Notes under the pieces: generated by a model
Told to the model about the DNA's origin: nothing
The model's database searches: none
What the model saw: only the letters and a program-made list of their open reading frames with translations
DNA from: Butyrivibrio sp.
GTDB taxonomy: Bacteria; Bacillota; Clostridia; Lachnospirales; Lachnospiraceae
DNA length: 64,000 bases
Assembly: GCA_017535785.1 (NCBI GenBank)
Contig: JAFXTN010000025.1
Span: 62,001-126,000, forward strand
Reading direction: 5' to 3'
In this document: positions 30,329-38,357 of the stretch, one piece after another
How the letters are laid out: each line of letters starts with the position of its first letter
How positions within the stretch are numbered: the first letter of the stretch is position 1
Program-made: the position numbers and the translations under genes

Positions 30329-31618
30329 TTAATTGTTGTCGTATATATCCTCGGTGAACGTCAGACTTCCTCTGTAACCAGCATAAGTACGGTTAAAGAT
30401 AAGTCTTTCGTTTACAGGGAAAGCTCCCAAGATAAACTGTATCTCTTTTTCCAAAGCAATCTCTCGTTCGTTACTGCTTCCGACAAGAAGCGTGATCTCA
30501 TTCTCTTCTTCTCGTATTGCCTTATTGATCTCGTACTGATCGGTAAGGAAAAGAACCTTCGGAGGCTTGGCGTACTCAAGATCCTGTATTTCTTTTACTA
30601 TCCTTTCCTTATCTTCCTGTCTGAAAATAGGCTCTGAAACAATAACAAGCACAGGTGTAAAGCTGTAGTCATTGGCAAGGTATCTTGTATATCCGACAGC
30701 GCTGTTTGCATCGGCTACAACCGCAAATCTCTTCCAGCTGACAACACCGATTGACTGTCCGAGGTAGTTGTATACATAATCCTCTTCTGCCTCTATCACA
30801 TCATCCACAAGCTTTTTATCAAGGTTTAGTGCTTCACTGACCTGTCTTATAAACTTGGTAGTATCGGTAGCTCCGACAAAAAGTCCGGGAATTCTGATAC
30901 TCGGAACACCGAATTTCTGTTCAAACTTCTTGGCGGGGCCGTTAAAGAGCCAAGGATTGACAATGATATTAAGCGCTGCACCGGAGCTCTTTTTAATATC
31001 TTCAATTCCCTGATGCTTGGTGAAAAATGTATTGACCTTAAGTCCAAGACCGGAAAGAATCCTGTCTATCTCTTCGAGCGTTCCGCTCCAGAAAGGATCG
31101 TGATAAGGCACGATTCCGAAGATATTTACAAGCTTATCGTCCTTAGGAACATCTTTTTCTATAACCTTATCTATAAATGTATTCCAGATAGTCTCATAAC
31201 CCAGATTGCTGTCTCCCGCAAAGCCGGGCGTTTCGATGGCATATACTTCGTGACCGTTTTCTCTGAATTCACTTGTGACGCTCTCAATATCGTCTCCGAT
31301 GATACCTGCGGTACATCCCGTGAGGACAAAAAACGCATCGGCGTCCATAATGTCTATCGCGCCCTGTATGGTCGTTCTAAGCTTATTTACTCCGCCGAAT
31401 ACAACCTCTTTTTCCAGCATGTTACTGGACGGGATTGAAACACCGTTTACAAAGCATGAGTGTTTGTGTCCCGACTGTCCCTGGTCTGCAGCTGTTGTCT
31501 GCATACAGCATCCGGGACCCGAATGATAAATTGGGCATACCCTTCCGATAGCTCCAAGTACTGAATTTATTCCGGCGAGAACGCATCCGCCCTTTGGATT
31601 TTCCATTATCTGTGACAT
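30329..31618 (-). CDS. Nitrogenase-like component 1, beta-type (NifK/oxidoreductase superfamily)
   Basis: A 429-residue protein of the nitrogenase component 1 superfamily. Conserved cysteines C12, C28, C37/C38 (SGPGCC) and C102 (TGCTAGIIGDD) match the positions of P-cluster-type ligands. FGGVNKLRTTIQGAID is also a family block. It is much shorter than NifK (~520). Its start codon overlaps the stop of the alpha-type gene at 31618, so the two products surely form a complex. A NifH-type reductase must come from elsewhere. The substrate is not known. Confidence 0.88.
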   Translation of the reverse strand: MSQIMENPKGGCVLAGINSVLGAIGRVCPIYHSGPGCCMQTTAADQGQSGHKHSCFVNGVSIPSSNMLEKEVVFGGVNKLRTTIQGAIDIMDADAFFVLTGCTAGIIGDDIESVTSEFRENGHEVYAIETPGFAGDSNLGYETIWNTFIDKVIEKDVPKDDKLVNIFGIVPYHDPFWSGTLEEIDRILSGLGLKVNTFFTKHQGIEDIKKSSGAALNIIVNPWLFNGPAKKFEQKFGVPSIRIPGLFVGATDTTKFIRQVSEALNLDKKLVDDVIEAEEDYVYNYLGQSIGVVSWKRFAVVADANSAVGYTRYLANDYSFTPVLVIVSEPIFRQEDKERIVKEIQDLEYAKPPKVLFLTDQYEINKAIREEENEITLLVGSSNEREIALEKEIQFILGAFPVNERLIFNRTYAGYRGSLTFTEDIYDNN

Positions 31619-33072
31619 TAGCCTTCTCCCCCTAAAATATATTTAAACGCATTTTCTTTGTACCATGAATCCTTGTAAGGGAGCTTAACGTGCTTGGCAA
31701 GCTTCTTGTTAAATCCGGGATTTTCAAGCTGATCGGCGATCTTGTTTCCAAGGAAAAGAAGTCCGTCATAGCCCATCGTAGGCCTCTTTCCGTCAAGTAC
31801 GTGAGTTGTCGGAATTCCAAGCTTGGCTGCCCACTCAGGAACACCGATAAATGCATCGGGCTTAAGCTTATTCAAAAGATTCACCTGCTCAAAAGGCTGC
31901 ATGTTGGCAATATCAACAACGAAATCCTTATGAATCCCGTTCAGGTATTCGATATCAACCTGCGCATCCGCGTCATATGTGGGTGTCTCAAGTCCGACAA
32001 GCTCCATTCCGAAATCATCGATAAGAGCTGCAGCGGCAAATGATCTTCCTGTTCCGCCGCAGATAAATACTCTTTTTCCCTGAAGCCTTTCTTTTAATTT
32101 GGCAACAAGAGGTTCGATTCTCTCATGCTCTGAAGCAATGATCTCTTCAACCTCTTTTTCTTTTCCTATTACTTTTGCAATTCCTCTGTACCACTTGTCG
32201 GTATTTCTTATACCGATGGGCATAACCGTGTGAGAATACGGTATCTCATAATCCTCCCACAAGGTCTTCATAAACTCATCGGCGAACACCTTACAAATTG
32301 AAGTGGAAGCTTCGGCTGCGGGAATCTTCTTTATCTTTTCAAGCGAACTGTAGAAAGGAATATAGTTAACCTTAGCACCCAAGAGAGTTATCATTCTCTC
32401 CATCTCTTTTTGATCGGCAAAAGAAACTGTAGTAGGCGCAAAGAGATTTATAAGTCCTTTCTCTTTTTCCACTTTTTCTTTTTTCAAGATATATTTGTTG
32501 ATAGAAATAAATGCCGCGTCAAATCCGGAAGCACAAATCTTGGATTTAAAGCCTTCGCAGTGAATGGGCACCATTATCGTGCCGGGATATTCCGCCTGAA
32601 GATCCTGCGCGATCGCATCGATATCATCGCCGATGATACCCGAAGCGCAAGAAGCATAAATAAACGCAAGCTTTGGATTGTATCTTTCAACAGCCTTTTG
32701 AACCGCATCGCGAAGCTTTTGTTCTCCGCCGAACACAACACTCTTTTGATCTATGTTGGTGACGATAAGCCTTGGATTCTTAACTGCTTTGATTCCTCTG
32801 TGTATCTGACCTACGCGGTACATATCAACAGCCATTATCGCGCATCCGACGCATCCCTGCGGTGAATGAGAAATAAACACGGAATCTTCCAAAGACATAA
32901 GCGCAGCCATGCTGTTGATCTGCTGGCACTGAAGGCCCTGCGCAAAGCTTCTGTCTGCTCTTTTAAGGCATCCTTTCTTATAATTCTCGGCAACCTCTTT
33001 TCCGGTTGATCCAAGATCATTGACTCTTCCCGGTATACTCTCACGTACACCTGAGTATTGAACGTTAGACAT
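31618..33072 (-). CDS. Nitrogenase-like component 1, alpha-type (NifD superfamily)
   Basis: A 484-residue protein. Cysteines C49, C74 (SPQGCVGC) and C142 (ASCASGIIGDDI) match NifD P-cluster ligands; C260 (EASTSICKVFADEF) is near the position of the FeMo-co Cys ligand. The GYDG block that in NifD follows the cofactor His reads PTMGYDG here (residues 431-437), so that His seems replaced. The active-site cofactor therefore probably differs from FeMo-co. It belongs to the nitrogenase-like enzymes (relatives include methylthio-alkane reductase, Cfb and Bch complexes) of unknown substrate. It is seventh in an operon with transporters. Confidence 0.88.
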   Translation of the reverse strand: MSNVQYSGVRESIPGRVNDLGSTGKEVAENYKKGCLKRADRSFAQGLQCQQINSMAALMSLEDSVFISHSPQGCVGCAIMAVDMYRVGQIHRGIKAVKNPRLIVTNIDQKSVVFGGEQKLRDAVQKAVERYNPKLAFIYASCASGIIGDDIDAIAQDLQAEYPGTIMVPIHCEGFKSKICASGFDAAFISINKYILKKEKVEKEKGLINLFAPTTVSFADQKEMERMITLLGAKVNYIPFYSSLEKIKKIPAAEASTSICKVFADEFMKTLWEDYEIPYSHTVMPIGIRNTDKWYRGIAKVIGKEKEVEEIIASEHERIEPLVAKLKERLQGKRVFICGGTGRSFAAAALIDDFGMELVGLETPTYDADAQVDIEYLNGIHKDFVVDIANMQPFEQVNLLNKLKPDAFIGVPEWAAKLGIPTTHVLDGKRPTMGYDGLLFLGNKIADQLENPGFNKKLAKHVKLPYKDSWYKENAFKYILGGEG

Positions 33073-33111
33073 CTCTCTACCTTTCCTTATGACATGTATT
33101 ACTTAAAAGCA

Positions 33112-33804
33112 TCATGCTCCAAGTTCCGTATAATCAAGCTTCAAATTTATATCCGCAAAATCAATTGCTTCACTCTCATGTGAACTGATAATGACTGTAC
33201 TTCCAAGGTCGCAGAATTTTCTAAGAAGCTTCAAAACGCTCCTGACATTGCCTCTGTCAAGATTGGCCGTAGGTTCATCCATTATGATAACCTTTGGCTT
33301 TGTGACAAGCGCTCTTGCTATCGCGGCTCTTTTGATCTCTCCGCCTGACATATTGCAAGGAAGCTCATCCTTTAGTGCCGTTAAACCAAGTTCATCCGTG
33401 ATGAGAGAAAAAAGTTCATCCCCGTCAAAAGACTCATCGTCAGGCACTTTGTTTATCAAACATGATATCTTCAGGTTTTCCGATAAAGTCAGATAAGAGA
33501 TCAAATCGCTTTCCTGAGTCACTATCCCAAGATGATTGTTTCTGAACGAAGAAAGCTCCTCATCCGAAAGCTTGGTGATATCTTTATTTCCGTAAAAGAC
33601 ACTTCCCGAGCTTGGTTTACTAAGTCCCGAAGCTATATTTAAAAGAGTACTTTTTCCCGCACCGCTGTCGCCGCTTATGACAACGAATTTTCCGTACGGA
33701 ATATCAAGAGATACATTATCAAGCACAACGTTGTCTCTTTTGCCTCTCTTATATTTCTTTTTAATGTTTTTTATACTGATATCCAAAGTATTATCTGCAG
33801 CCAT
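33112..33804 (-). CDS. ABC transporter ATPase, LolD/MacB type
   Basis: A 230-residue ATPase with Walker A GDSGAGKST (~45), Q-loop VTQESD, signature MSGGEIKRAAIARAL, Walker B KVIIMDEPTANLD and SSH switch. This subtype pairs with FtsX/MacB-type permeases; the partner gene ends 4 nt upstream. It does mechanical work on membrane or extracytoplasmic substrates rather than solute import. Here it may move a cofactor, lipoprotein or product of the nitrogenase-like system. Confidence 0.9.
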   Translation of the reverse strand: MAADNTLDISIKNIKKKYKRGKRDNVVLDNVSLDIPYGKFVVISGDSGAGKSTLLNIASGLSKPSSGSVFYGNKDITKLSDEELSSFRNNHLGIVTQESDLISYLTLSENLKISCLINKVPDDESFDGDELFSLITDELGLTALKDELPCNMSGGEIKRAAIARALVTKPKVIIMDEPTANLDRGNVRSVLKLLRKFCDLGSTVIISSHESEAIDFADINLKLDYTELGA

Positions 33805-33807
33805 TCT

Positions 33808-34983
33808 TTACTCCAATACCTCTGTAGGACAGGTTTTCTTGATGTTAAACGCGACACAGGCAGGTCCTATTATAGCGGTCAAAATAAGTGAGATCAACAA
33901 CACGATCACCTTTTCATATCCGTAAGGACTTATAAAAGGCAAATTAAGCGTCATTTCTATCACTCTGTAGATAAGATCAAAAACAAGAAGTCCGAAAAAT
34001 GCTCCGAGAACAGCTCCCGGAAAAGAAATCCAAAACGCCTCTTCTATCAGGAATTTTTTGACTCCGCTCTTACTTACTCCGACAATTCTCAGTGTCTCAA
34101 ATTCTTTTTTCCTCTCATTTAAAGTTATGTAGTAAATGATGTATAAAAGCGCTATGCTCACAAGAAGAAAAGCAAATGCTATGATCGCATACACCGTTTT
34201 CATCCTTCCGATTCCTTGCGATAACTTGGATGAAACAAGATCCGTCGTGACGACGTCAACGCCTTCGATACTCGAAAGTTTTCCGACAAGTCTTTGAATA
34301 TCATCTTTATCCGCGGCCTTTATAAGCACCGCGGATATATCTTTTCCGGTTATTTCTTTTACAATGCCCTGTCCCGCTTCTCTTGCATCGGTTATGAGCG
34401 TGTCCATATAATCACGACTTACAAAAACGGTGACATCCATGGAAGATCCGCTCTCATCAAGTACGGCGGCAACATTGTATTTTTTACCGAACATCTGAAA
34501 AGTCTTGTCTTCTTTGACTCCCACATTACTTCCGACAATTATCTCACCGTTATCAATTGCATTTAAAAAGCTCTTGTCTATCCAAGGTTTAACGGTAAAA
34601 TCACTGTCTGTATCTATACCGATTATCTGAACCGGCTGATCGCAGCAGGAAGCTTCCAGTGTCATAAGGAAGGTCTGAGGTGATACTTTCTCAACCCCTT
34701 CAATCTCTCCGATCCTATCAAGCACGGAATCATCCATGTAAAAAAAGCTCTTCTTTGCGGTAATAAGCATGCCTTCCATCTCATCACCATGGCCGTCGGG
34801 AACAATGATAAGATCTGCTCCCAGCCTTTCAACCATGTTCTTTCCGCCGTGCTCCGTTCCAAGAAGGATCAGGCCGATAAGAACGATTGCTGTTGACAAA
34901 AGCACTCCTATCAAAGCAATTCCCAAACTTCTGTATAATCTTGAGCTTATGCTTTTTGAAATAAGTTTGTGTGTTCCCGACAT
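33808..34983 (-). CDS. FtsX/MacB-type ABC permease
   Basis: A 391-residue protein: membrane segment near the N-terminus (LGIALIGVLLSTAIVLIGLI), a ~220-residue extracytoplasmic MacB_PCD-like domain, then three membrane segments with the FtsX domain (FAFLLVSIALLYIIYYITLN, ERKKEFETLRIVGVS). It works with the following ATPase. It contains several HG/EHGGK residues but no metal motif I would rely on. Confidence 0.88.
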   Translation of the reverse strand: MSGTHKLISKSISSRLYRSLGIALIGVLLSTAIVLIGLILLGTEHGGKNMVERLGADLIIVPDGHGDEMEGMLITAKKSFFYMDDSVLDRIGEIEGVEKVSPQTFLMTLEASCCDQPVQIIGIDTDSDFTVKPWIDKSFLNAIDNGEIIVGSNVGVKEDKTFQMFGKKYNVAAVLDESGSSMDVTVFVSRDYMDTLITDAREAGQGIVKEITGKDISAVLIKAADKDDIQRLVGKLSSIEGVDVVTTDLVSSKLSQGIGRMKTVYAIIAFAFLLVSIALLYIIYYITLNERKKEFETLRIVGVSKSGVKKFLIEEAFWISFPGAVLGAFFGLLVFDLIYRVIEMTLNLPFISPYGYEKVIVLLISLILTAIIGPACVAFNIKKTCPTEVLE

Positions 34984-34994
34984 TTCTTTTAACC

Positions 34995-35387
34995 TCAGGC
35001 TTTTTTGGTAACTATCAAAATATCAACCAGATAAACGGCTGTGATCACAATTCCTACGATGATAAGGAACGGTCTTGTAACTACGTTGCAGTGCATGGTC
35101 TTCATATCGCAGACAGGCTTTATCACGGGTGAAAGAGCAAGAAGAATTCCGCCGATCACCTGAACTATCGAAAGAATGAGCTTGGAGTTTTTGATATCGA
35201 TAGCAAGCTGTCCAAGAGAAAGAATTCCGAGAATGATGCTAAGTGTAACTGCTAATGCTCTTGTAGCATGGCACTTTGCCTCCATCTCTCCCATGTCTCC
35301 GCATACATGTGCAAATGTATAAACTCCGATGATTACGAATATTGCTGCTAAAAGAGCTGCGATGTTAAGTATTTTATGTGCTTTCAT
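34995..35387 (-). CDS. DUF4418 family membrane protein
   Basis: A 130-residue protein with four predicted membrane segments. Two outward or loop segments are rich in Cys, His and Met: HVCGDMGEMEAKCHAT and KPVCDMKTMHCN, the hallmark of DUF4418. Such residues could bind metal. It sits between the importer lipoprotein and the FtsX-type permease, spacing 11 nt to the latter. Function unknown. Confidence 0.8.
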   Translation of the reverse strand: MKAHKILNIAALLAAIFVIIGVYTFAHVCGDMGEMEAKCHATRALAVTLSIILGILSLGQLAIDIKNSKLILSIVQVIGGILLALSPVIKPVCDMKTMHCNVVTRPFLIIVGIVITAVYLVDILIVTKKA

Positions 35388-35438
35388 TTTTAGGTTGGCC
35401 TTTCTTTTTTAGTCTTTTTTATCTAATAGAATTATCGT

Positions 35439-36518
35439 TTATGATTGTTCCTTAAACTCTTTGGTGTTCGGATCATAAACAAATGTCTCGGGAACTCCCT
35501 CAAGATCGGGGAATACCTTCTTTGTAAAATCATCGAGATTCAAATTGGGATCAAGATCTCCCGTCTTCTGAAGATCCTTAAATGACGCCGTAAAAGTCTC
35601 GCGTCCGAGTGTAACGGAAGGCTCATAGTTAAGGCTTGCAAGGATCTCTCCGTATCTTACGATATCCTCATCACTCTCCGAAGGCATGTATCCGTTTTCA
35701 ACCTGAAGTCTTGCTGCTTCCTCGGGAAGCGCCTGAACAAACGCTGCGGCCTTCTGAATTCCTCTTGCATAAGCTGCGGCGCCCTCGGGGTTGTTCTCAA
35801 TGAGCTCCTGAGATACATAAGCCTGGCAGCAATATTCCTGTGAAAAGACTTCATCTTCGCCGATATCAAGTATCTTGATAAAGTCATAGTTCTTTTCCGC
35901 GTTGTAAGCTACGGGATCGTGAATACCGATAGCATCTACCGCGCCGTTATCAAGCGCTGTCGGAAGATCGGTCATTGCATAAGTTACAAACTGAATGTCT
36001 GCGTCGGCTCCGTTTACATTAAATCCGAGACTAAAGAGCTTTCTCTTTAGCTGGATGGGTGCGGAATCCGAAAGAGATGCAACACCGATTGTTTTTCCTT
36101 TAAGATCTTCAAGACTCTTAACGCTGCTTCCGTTCTTGGAATAGAACTTGGTGCAGCCTCTGTGAAGTCCGGTAACGAAAGAGATCGCAAGTCCGTTGGA
36201 AATGGGCTGCATAAGTGTTCCCGTAAGCCCGTAGCCTGCATTTATCTCTCCACTCGTTATCTGCTCCGTTACGGTATCTATGTTGGAATTAACGATCTCG
36301 TACTTCTGTCCTATCGCCGCAAATTCCTCATCAAAATATCCGTTTATTATCGCGATGTGTACAGGTGCAAGGCAAAGGCTCTCTTTGTTATTAAGGATCT
36401 TTACGACCTGCTTTTCGCCTTCCGCTTTCGCGGATCCTTTACCCTGACATCCGACAAGCATACTCATTGTCAAAACAAGACAAAGTATTATTGATATAAG
36501 TGCTTTTCCTTTTTTCAT
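35439..36518 (-). CDS. ABC importer substrate-binding lipoprotein (NMT1/TauA/SsuA type)
   Basis: A 359-residue lipoprotein with lipobox MLVGC (Cys 24). The fold is that of nitrate/sulfonate/taurine-binding proteins (LAPVHIAIINGYFDEEF, GLTGTLMQPISNGL, KGKTIGVASLSDSAPIQLKR, ALDNGAVDAIGIHDPVAYNA). It captures a small, probably organic sulfur or nitrogen compound for the permease and ATPase encoded upstream. The compound is likely the substrate of, or a nutrient for, the nitrogenase-like enzyme. Confidence 0.88.
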   Translation of the reverse strand: MKKGKALISIILCLVLTMSMLVGCQGKGSAKAEGEKQVVKILNNKESLCLAPVHIAIINGYFDEEFAAIGQKYEIVNSNIDTVTEQITSGEINAGYGLTGTLMQPISNGLAISFVTGLHRGCTKFYSKNGSSVKSLEDLKGKTIGVASLSDSAPIQLKRKLFSLGFNVNGADADIQFVTYAMTDLPTALDNGAVDAIGIHDPVAYNAEKNYDFIKILDIGEDEVFSQEYCCQAYVSQELIENNPEGAAAYARGIQKAAAFVQALPEEAARLQVENGYMPSESDEDIVRYGEILASLNYEPSVTLGRETFTASFKDLQKTGDLDPNLNLDDFTKKVFPDLEGVPETFVYDPNTKEFKEQS

Positions 36519-36562
36519 TTTCTTTTTCTCCCTGATTAGTGCAATCGCCTATAGTACGGCAA

Positions 36563-37342
36563 TTATAAGTAGTACTCCGGCTCTCTGTTCTCTCCGGCAT
36601 AATTTAGGATCTCAAGTATCTTGGTCCTGTATTTAAGGAAGTCGTTGCTTCCCCTTGACCTGGGTCGTCCCAGCTCTATATCGATAACCTGCTCAATCTT
36701 GGCCGGTCTCGGTGTCATGATAACAACCTGATCAGACATATAAACCGCCTCATCAACATCATGAGTTACCATGATCATTGTCATTTGCTGCTCTTTCCAG
36801 ATTCTCAGGATCTCGTCCTGCATATTCATTCTGGTAAAAGCATCAAGTGCTCCCAAGGGCTCATCAAGTAGCAGCACCTTCGGATGTCCGACCAGCGCTC
36901 TCGCAAGAGAAGCTCTCTGATTCATACCGCCTGAAAGCTGATGTGGGTAAGAGTTTTCGAATCCCTTTAGTCCCACCATTTCAATGTACTCTTTTACATC
37001 CTCCTTCTTTTGCTTGTATACTCCTCTGGCCTTAAGACCAAAAGAAATATTTTTTTCTATAGAAAGCCATGGATAAAGATTGGCCTGCTGGAATGCAAAG
37101 CCTCTGTCATGTCCGGGACCTTTTACCAATTCTCCGTCCAGATATACCGCCCCCGAGTCCGCAAGATTCAGTCCCGCGATTGCTCGAAGGAGCGTTGTTT
37201 TACCGCATCCGGATGGACCTATAAGTGAGATAAAAGAACCTGCTTTTACATTAAGGTCTATCTCGTTAAGAGCATTCACAACACCGCCATCTGCATTGAT
37301 AAAGCTCTTTGAAACTTTTTCTATATTGATCTCGCCTACCAT
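36563..37342 (-). CDS. ABC importer ATPase, SsuB/TauB type
   Basis: A 259-residue ATPase. ATG 37342 has AAGGGAG 7 nt upstream and overlaps the permease stop by 7 nt; the earlier ATG (37363) lacks a site. Walker A GPSGCGKTT, signature LSGGMNQRASLARAL, Walker B VLLLDEPLGALD and THDVDEAV are complete. The SsuB/TauB-like sequence supports uptake of sulfonate-, nitrate- or pyrimidine-precursor-like solutes. Confidence 0.92.
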   Translation of the reverse strand: MVGEINIEKVSKSFINADGGVVNALNEIDLNVKAGSFISLIGPSGCGKTTLLRAIAGLNLADSGAVYLDGELVKGPGHDRGFAFQQANLYPWLSIEKNISFGLKARGVYKQKKEDVKEYIEMVGLKGFENSYPHQLSGGMNQRASLARALVGHPKVLLLDEPLGALDAFTRMNMQDEILRIWKEQQMTMIMVTHDVDEAVYMSDQVVIMTPRPAKIEQVIDIELGRPRSRGSNDFLKYRTKILEILNYAGENREPEYYL

Positions 37343-38289
37343 TTGATAACTCCCTTCTGCCATCCGAGCACTTTGTCTTTGAATTTAAACAAAAGCGTGA
37401 TGATGAAATTACACAAAACAGCCAAAAGAATGAGTCCTGCATATACATTGGCATACAGCATCATGCTCTTTTGCCAGTTAAGATACCAGCCTATACCGGA
37501 TTTGCATCCGAACATCTCAGCCGTTACGAGAGTTACAAAAGATCCTGTCGTCGCATAAAAAAATCCGAGGAAAACACTCGGAAGTGCAGCCGGAATTCCA
37601 ACTTTAAATATTTTGCAGAGCTTGCCTGCTCCCAATGTGTCGGCAACTTCAAAATATGTCTGCTGCACATTTTGAATTCCGTTGCTCGTCATGACCGTGA
37701 TCGGAAACCACACGGACAATGCGATCATAAATACCGCCGCCTGATATGATGTGCTAAAAAGTGAAAGTACAAGCGGTGACCATGATGTCGCGGGTATCGG
37801 TCCTATTATCTTGGTAAAAGGATTGACCCAATAAGCTATTTTTTTGTTAAAGCCGATCAGTATACCTGTTGTAAAACCAAGTATCGCACCTACCGCAAAT
37901 CCAATGATAAGAAGCTTTCCGGATGAAAGAATACATTCAATGATCAGCGGAAGATCGTTTACAAAAACTCCGAATACTCTGTCGAGCGACGGAAAAAACA
38001 AAACCGGCAAAAGCGAAAACTTACTGCAAACAAGATTTATTATCGTAAGAAGCAGTGCTCCTCCCGCAAAGAGCGGACCTTTTTCTTCCAGTTTGTCTGC
38101 CGCTTTTTTATTCAAAAAAGAATATCCGTAGAAAGCAACAAATATGACACCTACAATAAAAAGAAAATATGTAAAGTACGGTGCCTGCGCCTGTGGCTGA
38201 ATAGTCGAATTCGGAATAAGAACCTGAATCAGGATCGCGAATATAAGCGAAGCGATCACACTGAGCCGTTTAGTCTGTTTAAGTAGCAA
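37336..38289 (-). CDS. ABC importer permease, SsuC/TauC type
   Basis: A 317-residue membrane protein; first gene of the nitrogenase-like operon. Start is TTG 38289 with GAGGAGG nine nt upstream. An ATG only 2 nt after that site opens a five-codon frame (MKIAT, stop), too close to be the main start. About eight membrane segments; the EAA loop region is EVADTLGAGKLCKIFKVGIP. The extra N-terminal segments exceed usual SsuC (~260 aa). Expression may be tuned by the stem-loop in the leader. Confidence 0.87.
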   Translation of the reverse strand: MLLKQTKRLSVIASLIFAILIQVLIPNSTIQPQAQAPYFTYFLFIVGVIFVAFYGYSFLNKKAADKLEEKGPLFAGGALLLTIINLVCSKFSLLPVLFFPSLDRVFGVFVNDLPLIIECILSSGKLLIIGFAVGAILGFTTGILIGFNKKIAYWVNPFTKIIGPIPATSWSPLVLSLFSTSYQAAVFMIALSVWFPITVMTSNGIQNVQQTYFEVADTLGAGKLCKIFKVGIPAALPSVFLGFFYATTGSFVTLVTAEMFGCKSGIGWYLNWQKSMMLYANVYAGLILLAVLCNFIITLLFKFKDKVLGWQKGVIKW

Positions 38290-38320
38290 TTTTCATAGCC
38301 TCCTCATGTTGTTATAAAAC

Positions 38321-38357
38321 AAAAACCAGAAGGGATTAATTCATCACCTCTGGTTTT
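38321..38357 (-). terminator. Terminator/attenuator-like stem-loop in the operon leader
   Basis: Minus strand AAAACCAGAGG ... CCTTCTGGTTTT followed by TGTTTTAT, about 30 nt before the permease start. It is either the terminator of the FMN-reductase gene 120 nt upstream or an attenuator of the nitrogenase-like operon. The remaining leader matches no riboswitch I know. Confidence 0.65.

Follow-up and report, generated by a model that had tools for sequence, protein, structure and literature searches.

What does a nitrogenase-like enzyme do when its two genes close an operon that otherwise encodes membrane transport, with neither nifH nor nifB in the surrounding sequence? This question is raised by a 64,000-nucleotide stretch of Butyrivibrio sp. 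DNA, referred to below as the window (GenBank assembly GCA_017535785.1, contig JAFXTN010000025.1; G000:C4:62001-126000), whose source genome, G000, is a 2.9 Mb draft that is 91% complete. The D/K pair of the window, wD and wK (together wDK), belongs to the group IV nitrogenase-like proteins, in which wD forms a clade of its own related to methylthio-alkane reductase (MAR). From sequence comparison, wDK is moderately likely to be a second, NifH-sharing reductase that would cleave C-S bonds in organic-sulfur assimilation and feed cysteine or methionine synthesis. The two genes are:

31618..33072, minus strand: wD, nitrogenase-like alpha subunit, predicted to be catalytic (PF00148, E 1.2e-79; best PDB match MarD, 1.9e-68)
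30329..31618, minus strand: wK, nitrogenase-like beta subunit (PF00148, E 4.3e-71; best PDB match MarK, 7.5e-71)

A separate group IV clade related to methylthio-alkane reductase

MarD and MarK, the best solved-structure matches, are the subunits of MAR from R. rubrum, and for each window subunit they lead the next nitrogenase-family PDB chain by more than 100 bits. The NCBIfam nif, vnf, anf and bch models match wD and wK far under their cut-offs (141.4 bits for wD with the nifD model, cut-off 653.55; 70.7 bits for wK with the nifK model, cut-off 427.3), and the CfbD and BchNB models or chains score under MarD/MarK or NifD/E. Identity of wD is 30% to MarD and 20-23% to NifD and VnfD, while its nearest named relatives are Butyrivibrio records at 95-96%. 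A literature search that covered few subscription journals, mostly at listing level, found no description of the wD clade, nothing on nitrogenase-like proteins in connection with rumen, Butyrivibrio and sulfur, and nothing on uncharacterized nitrogenase-like group VI NifD homologs.

Phylogenetic trees were built from 73 sequences for D and 22 rows for K, with no named NfaD, CfbD, BchN or IsrD among them. Both D trees leave out D_L026 and D_L027 (the same places as D_G146 and D_G296), and the second also leaves out VnfE_Nostoc, a long branch. Three group IV clades were resolved in the D tree, and they differ at the Arg428-His429 loop that has been proposed as the MAR hallmark (PMC12552129, from which the MarD and MarK residue numbers used here are also taken). 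In the 30 rows of the Mar-like clade, Arg-His is present in 29 and Trp195 in all; in a second clade of 23 rows, the loop His is present and the Arg absent throughout. The 12 rows of the wD clade all lack the loop and all carry a His at nitrogenase spacing, which recurs in only 1 of the 53 other group IV rows (D2_G300, which also has the loop His), and the position of Trp195 is occupied by Cys in 11 of them and by His in one. The wD and Mar-like clades are sisters (96/94), and wD lies outside NifD/NifE, as the original prediction of an enzyme other than true NifDK implied. In the K tree, wK also falls in a separate clade (100/99), marked by the extra cysteines Cys28 and Cys38.

A genuine methylthio-alkane reductase, with MAR substrates and chemistry, would agree with MarD and MarK as best PDB matches and with the sister position of the two D clades. 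It would have to accommodate, however, the complete loss of a loop that is nearly constant among Mar-like rows, the replacement of Trp195, and the fact that G000 already possesses another D/K pair with the MAR hallmark (described below). This explanation is considered unlikely.

P-cluster cysteines and the cofactor pocket

Residues were scored in the relatives of the window genes, which are the best 80 of 389 confirmed places, at 83-96% identity. Of these 80 loci, 80 were long enough for wD, 73 for wK, 28 for Mar-like D and 34 for Mar-like K, and the first three of these sets served for counting residues; L028 (a fragment) and L174 (a copy of the genome's own mD) were left out, and among plasmid matches H1, H2, H3 and H9 were taken in. 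The P-cluster ligands of MAR are given as MarD Cys66, Cys91 and Cys158 and MarK Cys32, Cys56 and Cys121 (PMC12552129). They align with wD C49, C74 and C142, invariant in 80/80 relatives, and with wK C12, C37 and C102, invariant in 73/73. These six had been recognised from the sequence as P-cluster-type cysteines; beta C28 and C38, named alongside them, are instead clade-specific extras. Further invariant cysteines thus stand beside the ligands in both subunits, namely wD Cys77 (80/80) and wK Cys28 and Cys38 (73/73).

In the cofactor pocket, wD Cys260 aligns with the MarD cluster ligand Cys270 and Phe184 occupies the position of MarD Phe199, whereas Ile179-Cys180 takes the place of MarD His194-Trp195. 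Cys180 therefore has Trp195 as its counterpart in MAR and Gln191 in nitrogenase, and NifD Gln191 and His195 become Cys180 and Phe184. The Arg428-His429 loop is deleted, and MarD His375 is replaced by Thr or Glu, depending on the alignment. His424, Cys180, Cys260, Met433 and Trp414 of wD are each invariant in 80/80 relatives.

The original prediction read the TMGYDG block of the alpha subunit as replacement of the FeMo-co His. This proved to be a matter of register. The NifD ligand His442 precedes Trp444 by two residues (PMC13031127), which places it in QMHSW and not in PYHGYDG; the His of PYHGYDG is His451 by count, and it is at this position that wD carries Met. The ligand His442 aligns with wD His424, whose spacing to P-x-x-GYDG equals that of NifD His442 (HVLDGKRPTMGYDG in wD versus HSWDYSGPYHGYDG in NifD). 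In an HHalign comparison of the window protein plus 84 wD-clade sequences with ten NifD/VnfD sequences (E 2.1e-41), His424 likewise pairs with the NifD ligand His. In the V-nitrogenase chain 5n6y_A, His423, which we take to be the V-cofactor ligand, falls by count within NGHGYHNGPYMGFEG, and a Met stands at the GYDG-block position, as in the window. For AnfD, His423 is stated to be the cofactor ligand (PMC12552129). His424 is accordingly a predicted cluster ligand, by alignment.

Unlinked NifH and NifB-like genes beside a second D/K pair

Neither nifH nor nifB occurs in the window, and the original prediction was right in this respect. The genome, however, contains one strong NifH on contig C16 (434.7 bits; TIGR01287 464.7 bits, cut-off 394.35), together with a NifB-like radical SAM protein (267.9 bits, under the nifB cut-off of 343.65) that lacks a NifX domain. 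Near these genes on C16 lies the second, Mar-like D/K pair, designated mD and mK (mDK). The mD protein keeps both the MAR Arg-His and Trp195, as do 28/28 relatives long enough to score. The claimed absence of nifH and nifB holds for the window only.

This locus (L009, 8894-18222 of C16) has the core NifB-NifX-NifH-cysK-D-K-NifX and an SsuABC-type importer of its own. Its complete order is cysK, malY-like aminotransferase, CGS-type enzyme, NifB, NifX-like, NifH, cysK, mD, mK, NifX-like and the importer, in which genes from NifB onward were named by family models, and the two NifX-like genes and the first three genes by sequence reading.

The 91% complete genome yielded four PF00148 genes, which make up two D/K pairs and all fall with group IV in the trees; neither a NifE/N pair nor a nifV over cut-off was found there. 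Together with the tree position and the scores under nif cut-offs, these results support the conclusion, drawn from sequence, that wDK is not an N2-fixing NifDK. The original statement to this effect stands, although the two reasons offered for it, a lost cofactor His and a missing NifH, do not hold. True NifDK was rejected on scores and tree position. Compared with the Mo and V nitrogenases NifDK and VnfDK, wDK shares the family, the P-cluster cysteines and, by alignment, the equivalents of Cys275 and His442, but differs in its low D identity, in Cys and Phe for Gln191 and His195, in the NifEN pair and NifV not found, and in its place outside the Nif clade.

A nitrogenase independent of NifEN, of the Nfa (group IV-A) kind, deserves separate consideration, since N2 fixation without NifEN is reported for Endomicrobium proavitum (PMC9147875, PMC11257099; the Nfa-type exception of Endomicrobium also appears in PMC8399215 and PMC9641968) and wD has the nitrogenase-type Cys/His ligand positions by alignment. 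The residues Phe184 and Cys180 in place of NifD His195 and Gln191 speak against this kind of enzyme, as do the recognised neighbours of wDK in relatives, which belong to sulfur metabolism, amino-acid metabolism and transport. N2 fixation is unlikely because of these two substitutions and because neither a NifEN pair nor a nifV over cut-off was found in the genome, and an Nfa-type wDK is regarded as very improbable.

Operon structure

The eight-gene operon with two ABC transporters and DUF4418 was confirmed by Pfam and NCBIfam assignments. It consists of eight co-directional open reading frames running from 38289 to 30329 on the minus strand, with intergenic gaps of -28 to +51 bases. Upstream of wD and wK, the features are, in order of transcription:

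38316..38357, minus strand: hairpin plus T-run upstream of the operon (folded at -16.1 kcal/mol)
37336..38289, minus strand: SsuC/TauC/NtrB-type ABC permease, TTG start (PF00528, 2.2e-19; under NCBIfam cut-offs)
36563..37363, minus strand: SsuB/TauB/NtrD-type ABC ATPase (PF00005; SaoA 281 bits, cut-off 360; ntrCD 237 bits, cut-off 291.8)
35439..36518, minus strand: NMT1/SsuA-type substrate-binding protein (PF09084, 1.7e-14)
34995..35387, minus strand: DUF4418 membrane protein with conserved Cys motifs (PF14387, 2.3e-17; motifs across 14 aligned copies)
33808..34983, minus strand: FtsX/MacB-type permease (PF02687, 1.1e-15; PDB FtsX/MacB at E 0.001-0.009)
33112..33804, minus strand: LolD/FtsE-type ABC ATPase (TIGR02211, 1.1e-50; 172 bits, under the cut-off of 307.75)

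The hairpin sits between the FMN-reductase gene and the permease gene and may be a terminator of the former or an attenuator. Promoter and terminator scans deviated from the means of shuffled sequences by no more than about one standard deviation. The paired Cys motifs of DUF4418, whose gene adjoins FtsX/LolD, are kept in the window copy and 13 relatives and possibly form a metal, heme or thiol site.

Gene neighbourhoods in relatives

Record labels of the relatives include Lachnospiraceae, Ruminococcus, Clostridiales and Treponema. Neighbours were labelled by similarity to 25 query proteins, so that other importer types are undercounted. The wD and wK genes occur together in 80/80 loci. Where both flanks extend for at least 8.5 kb (28 loci), 18 loci contain Mar-like D or K, 17 cysK, 12 NifH and 21 any nif, mar or sulfur gene, while FtsX plus LolD occurs in 7; in the complete set of 80 stretches, many of them truncated at contig ends, 38 show Mar-like D or K and 20 show NifH. 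The linkage of wDK to nif/mar genes (18/28) is thus stronger than its linkage to SsuABC-type transporters (5/28). Genes of the window type and of the C16 type are united in a single run in L118: SBP (substrate-binding protein)-DUF4418-FtsX-LolD-cysK-NifB-NifX-NifH-mD-mK-NifX-wD-wK. The six-gene transport cassette recurs in full order, a few kb from wDK, in L071, L072, L076 and L105, with identities of 75-88% for SsuABC and 43-58% for DUF4418-FtsX-LolD.

In loci inspected by hand, Pfam neighbours include ThiF, ThiF-rhodanese, PALP, LysR, GNAT, Rrf2, class V aminotransferase, Ldh_2 and Fe-ADH; genes for ThiF, ThiF-rhodanese, PALP, LysR or Rrf2 stand beside wDK in some of them. Importers of the SBP_bac_3 and SBP_bac_5 types were seen in L052, L053, L054 and L121. 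The locus L054 (genome G161) combines a wD-like protein of 46-47% identity and genes of the NifH and NifB-like types with a C1-type peptidase and an importer of the oligopeptide type, a context that suggests a peptide or amino-acid sulfur source. In addition, loci labelled Treponema or Spirochaetaceae (L129, L130, L131, L132, L133, L135 and L137) carry wD copies 83-85% identical to that of the window, which suggests transfer between phyla.

Co-occurrence across genomes

Genomes were searched for 50 of the 80 relatives, a non-random set of which 14 were hand-picked, partly for having no NifH nearby. NifH at E <= 1e-60 was detected in 42 of the 50 (40 full length at no less than 89% identity, one fragment and one 48% match) and Mar-like D in 39; all nine named strains in the set have both. 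In a family sample of 397 genomes, where only the best three or four candidates per genome were scored, wD (at least 66% identity) occurred in 14 and Mar-like D (at least 60%) in 25. Thirteen genomes had both, against 0.9 expected by chance (P ~9e-17, no phylogenetic correction), and the fourteenth wD genome, G221, has part of a Mar-like D gene at the edge of a contig. Among 398 genomes of a phylum sample, the wD type was present in the window's own genome only, the next best match being 42% identical. This pattern suggests that wDK is a narrowly distributed accessory of genomes with the Mar-like system, which also occurs without wDK. Several NflDK pairs with a single NifH per genome have been described for Heliophilum fasciatum (NflDK1-5; PMC9147875), an arrangement similar to that in G000. 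Other genomes are richer in group IV proteins: G440 (Ruminiclostridium hungatei) has seven NifH-type matches, and G810, G496, G536 and G554 have four scored D matches each.

Such close association would also be expected if wDK were a NifEN-like scaffold on which the cluster of mDK matures, since wDK is found almost only in genomes with Mar-like D and often adjoins it (38/80 stretches). However, 12 of the 25 family genomes with Mar-like D have no wD match, G047 carries wDK alone in a cysK-NifB-NifH-cysK locus, and in G161 the wD-like protein is the only D match at E 1e-20. Furthermore, wK keeps three P-cluster cysteines in 73/73 relatives, whereas NifN of R. tropici has lost two, and active MAR was obtained from MarB, MarH, MarD and MarK in R. 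capsulatus (PMC12552129), where help from host NifEN is possible. A scaffold role is judged improbable. An obligate maturase of mDK was rejected because mDK occurs without wDK.

A proposed role in organic-sulfur assimilation

The original proposal of a reductase for an imported sulfur, nitrogen or metal compound holds up as reasonable, with organic sulfur as the class to which the present evidence restricts the substrate. Two things point to sulfur in preference to nitrogen or metal, namely the accompanying cysK, CGS/MalY, ThiF and Rrf2/LysR genes and the kinship with MAR. MarHDK-like genes together with methyl-sulfur gene clusters have been described (PMC10418091). The sulfite/nitrite reductase family PF01077 was present in 11 of 14 control genomes, but it was not found in the window genome (91% complete), and 34 of the 37 wD genomes examined for it (24 of the 50 and 13 of the family sample) likewise gave no match. 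Where it is missing, a sulfite product could not be reduced in the usual way.

This observation bears on a sulfonate reductase like IsrHDK, which would convert isethionate to sulfite and be fed by the SsuABC importer. SsuCAB is reported as an essential partner of IsrBHDK in R. capsulatus, a group IV system, and the window importer belongs to the same family; IsrD, however, lacks most cluster ligands (the equivalents of Cys62, Cys154, Cys275 and His442), whereas wD keeps the three Cys and the His by alignment, and IsrB is closest to BciD, whereas the radical SAM protein here is NifB-like (statements on Isr from PMC11423573). With PF01077 not found in most wD genomes searched, this role appears quite unlikely, and an Isr-type sulfonate reductase was rejected on the kept ligands and the sulfite reductase not found.

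The system most similar to wDK is MAR (MarHDK/MarB of R. rubrum; PDB 9fmg and 9d9u), with which it shares the best matches for both subunits, the six P-cluster cysteines, the equivalents of Cys270 and Phe199, NifB- and NifH-type partners and a sulfur context. It differs in lacking the Arg-His loop, in Cys180 for Trp195, in a His at the nitrogenase ligand position, in having its partners on another contig and in an importer within its own operon.

What the sequence data establish are the genes and their residues, the place of wDK in the trees, the presence of unlinked NifH and NifB-like genes, and the patterns of linkage and co-occurrence. The favoured role as a C-S-cleaving reductase could operate as follows. 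The SsuABC-type importer would take up a small organosulfur compound, and the single NifH of C16, presumably shared with mDK, would supply ATP-driven low-potential electrons to wDK. The electrons would pass through its P-cluster to a NifB-made cluster, probably of the [Fe8S9C] type, held by Cys260 and, at the nitrogenase ligand position, by His424, which would replace the Arg-His loop of MAR. This cluster, with Cys180 beside it, would cleave the C-S bond, and the sulfide or thiol set free may be built into cysteine or methionine by enzymes of the CysK and CGS/MalY types. Going further, wDK may represent a third [Fe8S9C]-type design: MAR-related, with the Cys/His anchoring of nitrogenase and a Cys thiol in the place of Gln191, desulfurising an imported compound that is a substrate of neither MAR nor Isr, and borrowing NifH and NifB from the Mar-like system. 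This is offered tentatively, as possible rather than probable.

Several observations weigh against the proposed role. The transporter linkage stressed in the original prediction is real but not universal, since SsuABC-type genes near wDK are a minority trait (18/80 loci overall and, as given above, 5/28 well-flanked ones). In L058 (9027-14625, from a Butyrivibrio metagenome-assembled genome, MAG), the window flanks (FMN reductase, TetR and nitroreductase) surround wDK while the six transport genes are missing; relative to the window, this is gain or loss of transport genes at one site. Because L009 has an SsuABC-type importer of its own as well, this importer family is no distinguishing mark of wDK. 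A PDB search with the substrate-binding protein returned distant solved relatives only (best 8.5e-06), from which no ligand can be named, and an Rfam scan of five sources gave no RNA family at gathering scores. As for the cluster, His424 coincides with the NifD His in one MAFFT mode out of three and stands two columns away from it in the other two. The trees disagree on the sister group of wDK, as the K tree joins wK to two loop-His-type K proteins (97/98) and not to MarK. PF01077 is present in 3 of the 37 wD genomes. Finally, 8 of the 50 wD genomes have no NifH match (in addition to the fragment and the 48% match) and 11 have no Mar-like D. All of these are MAG-titled, which makes incompleteness a likely, though not proven, reason; three MAGs (G435, G442 and G443) nevertheless have a full-length NifH and no Mar-like D match.

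Implications

Group IV nitrogenase-like enzymes bear on the origin of nitrogenase clusters. The His ligand lies on different loops in MAR and nitrogenase, and neither is inferred for the ancestor (PMC12552129); a MAR-sister clade with a nitrogenase-spaced His and without the MAR loop would offer a direct test of the history of this ligand. The findings also suggest an unrecognised route of sulfur salvage in bacteria of the rumen and gut that are mostly devoid of sulfite reductase, and hydrocarbon by-products would be possible if its chemistry is MAR-like.

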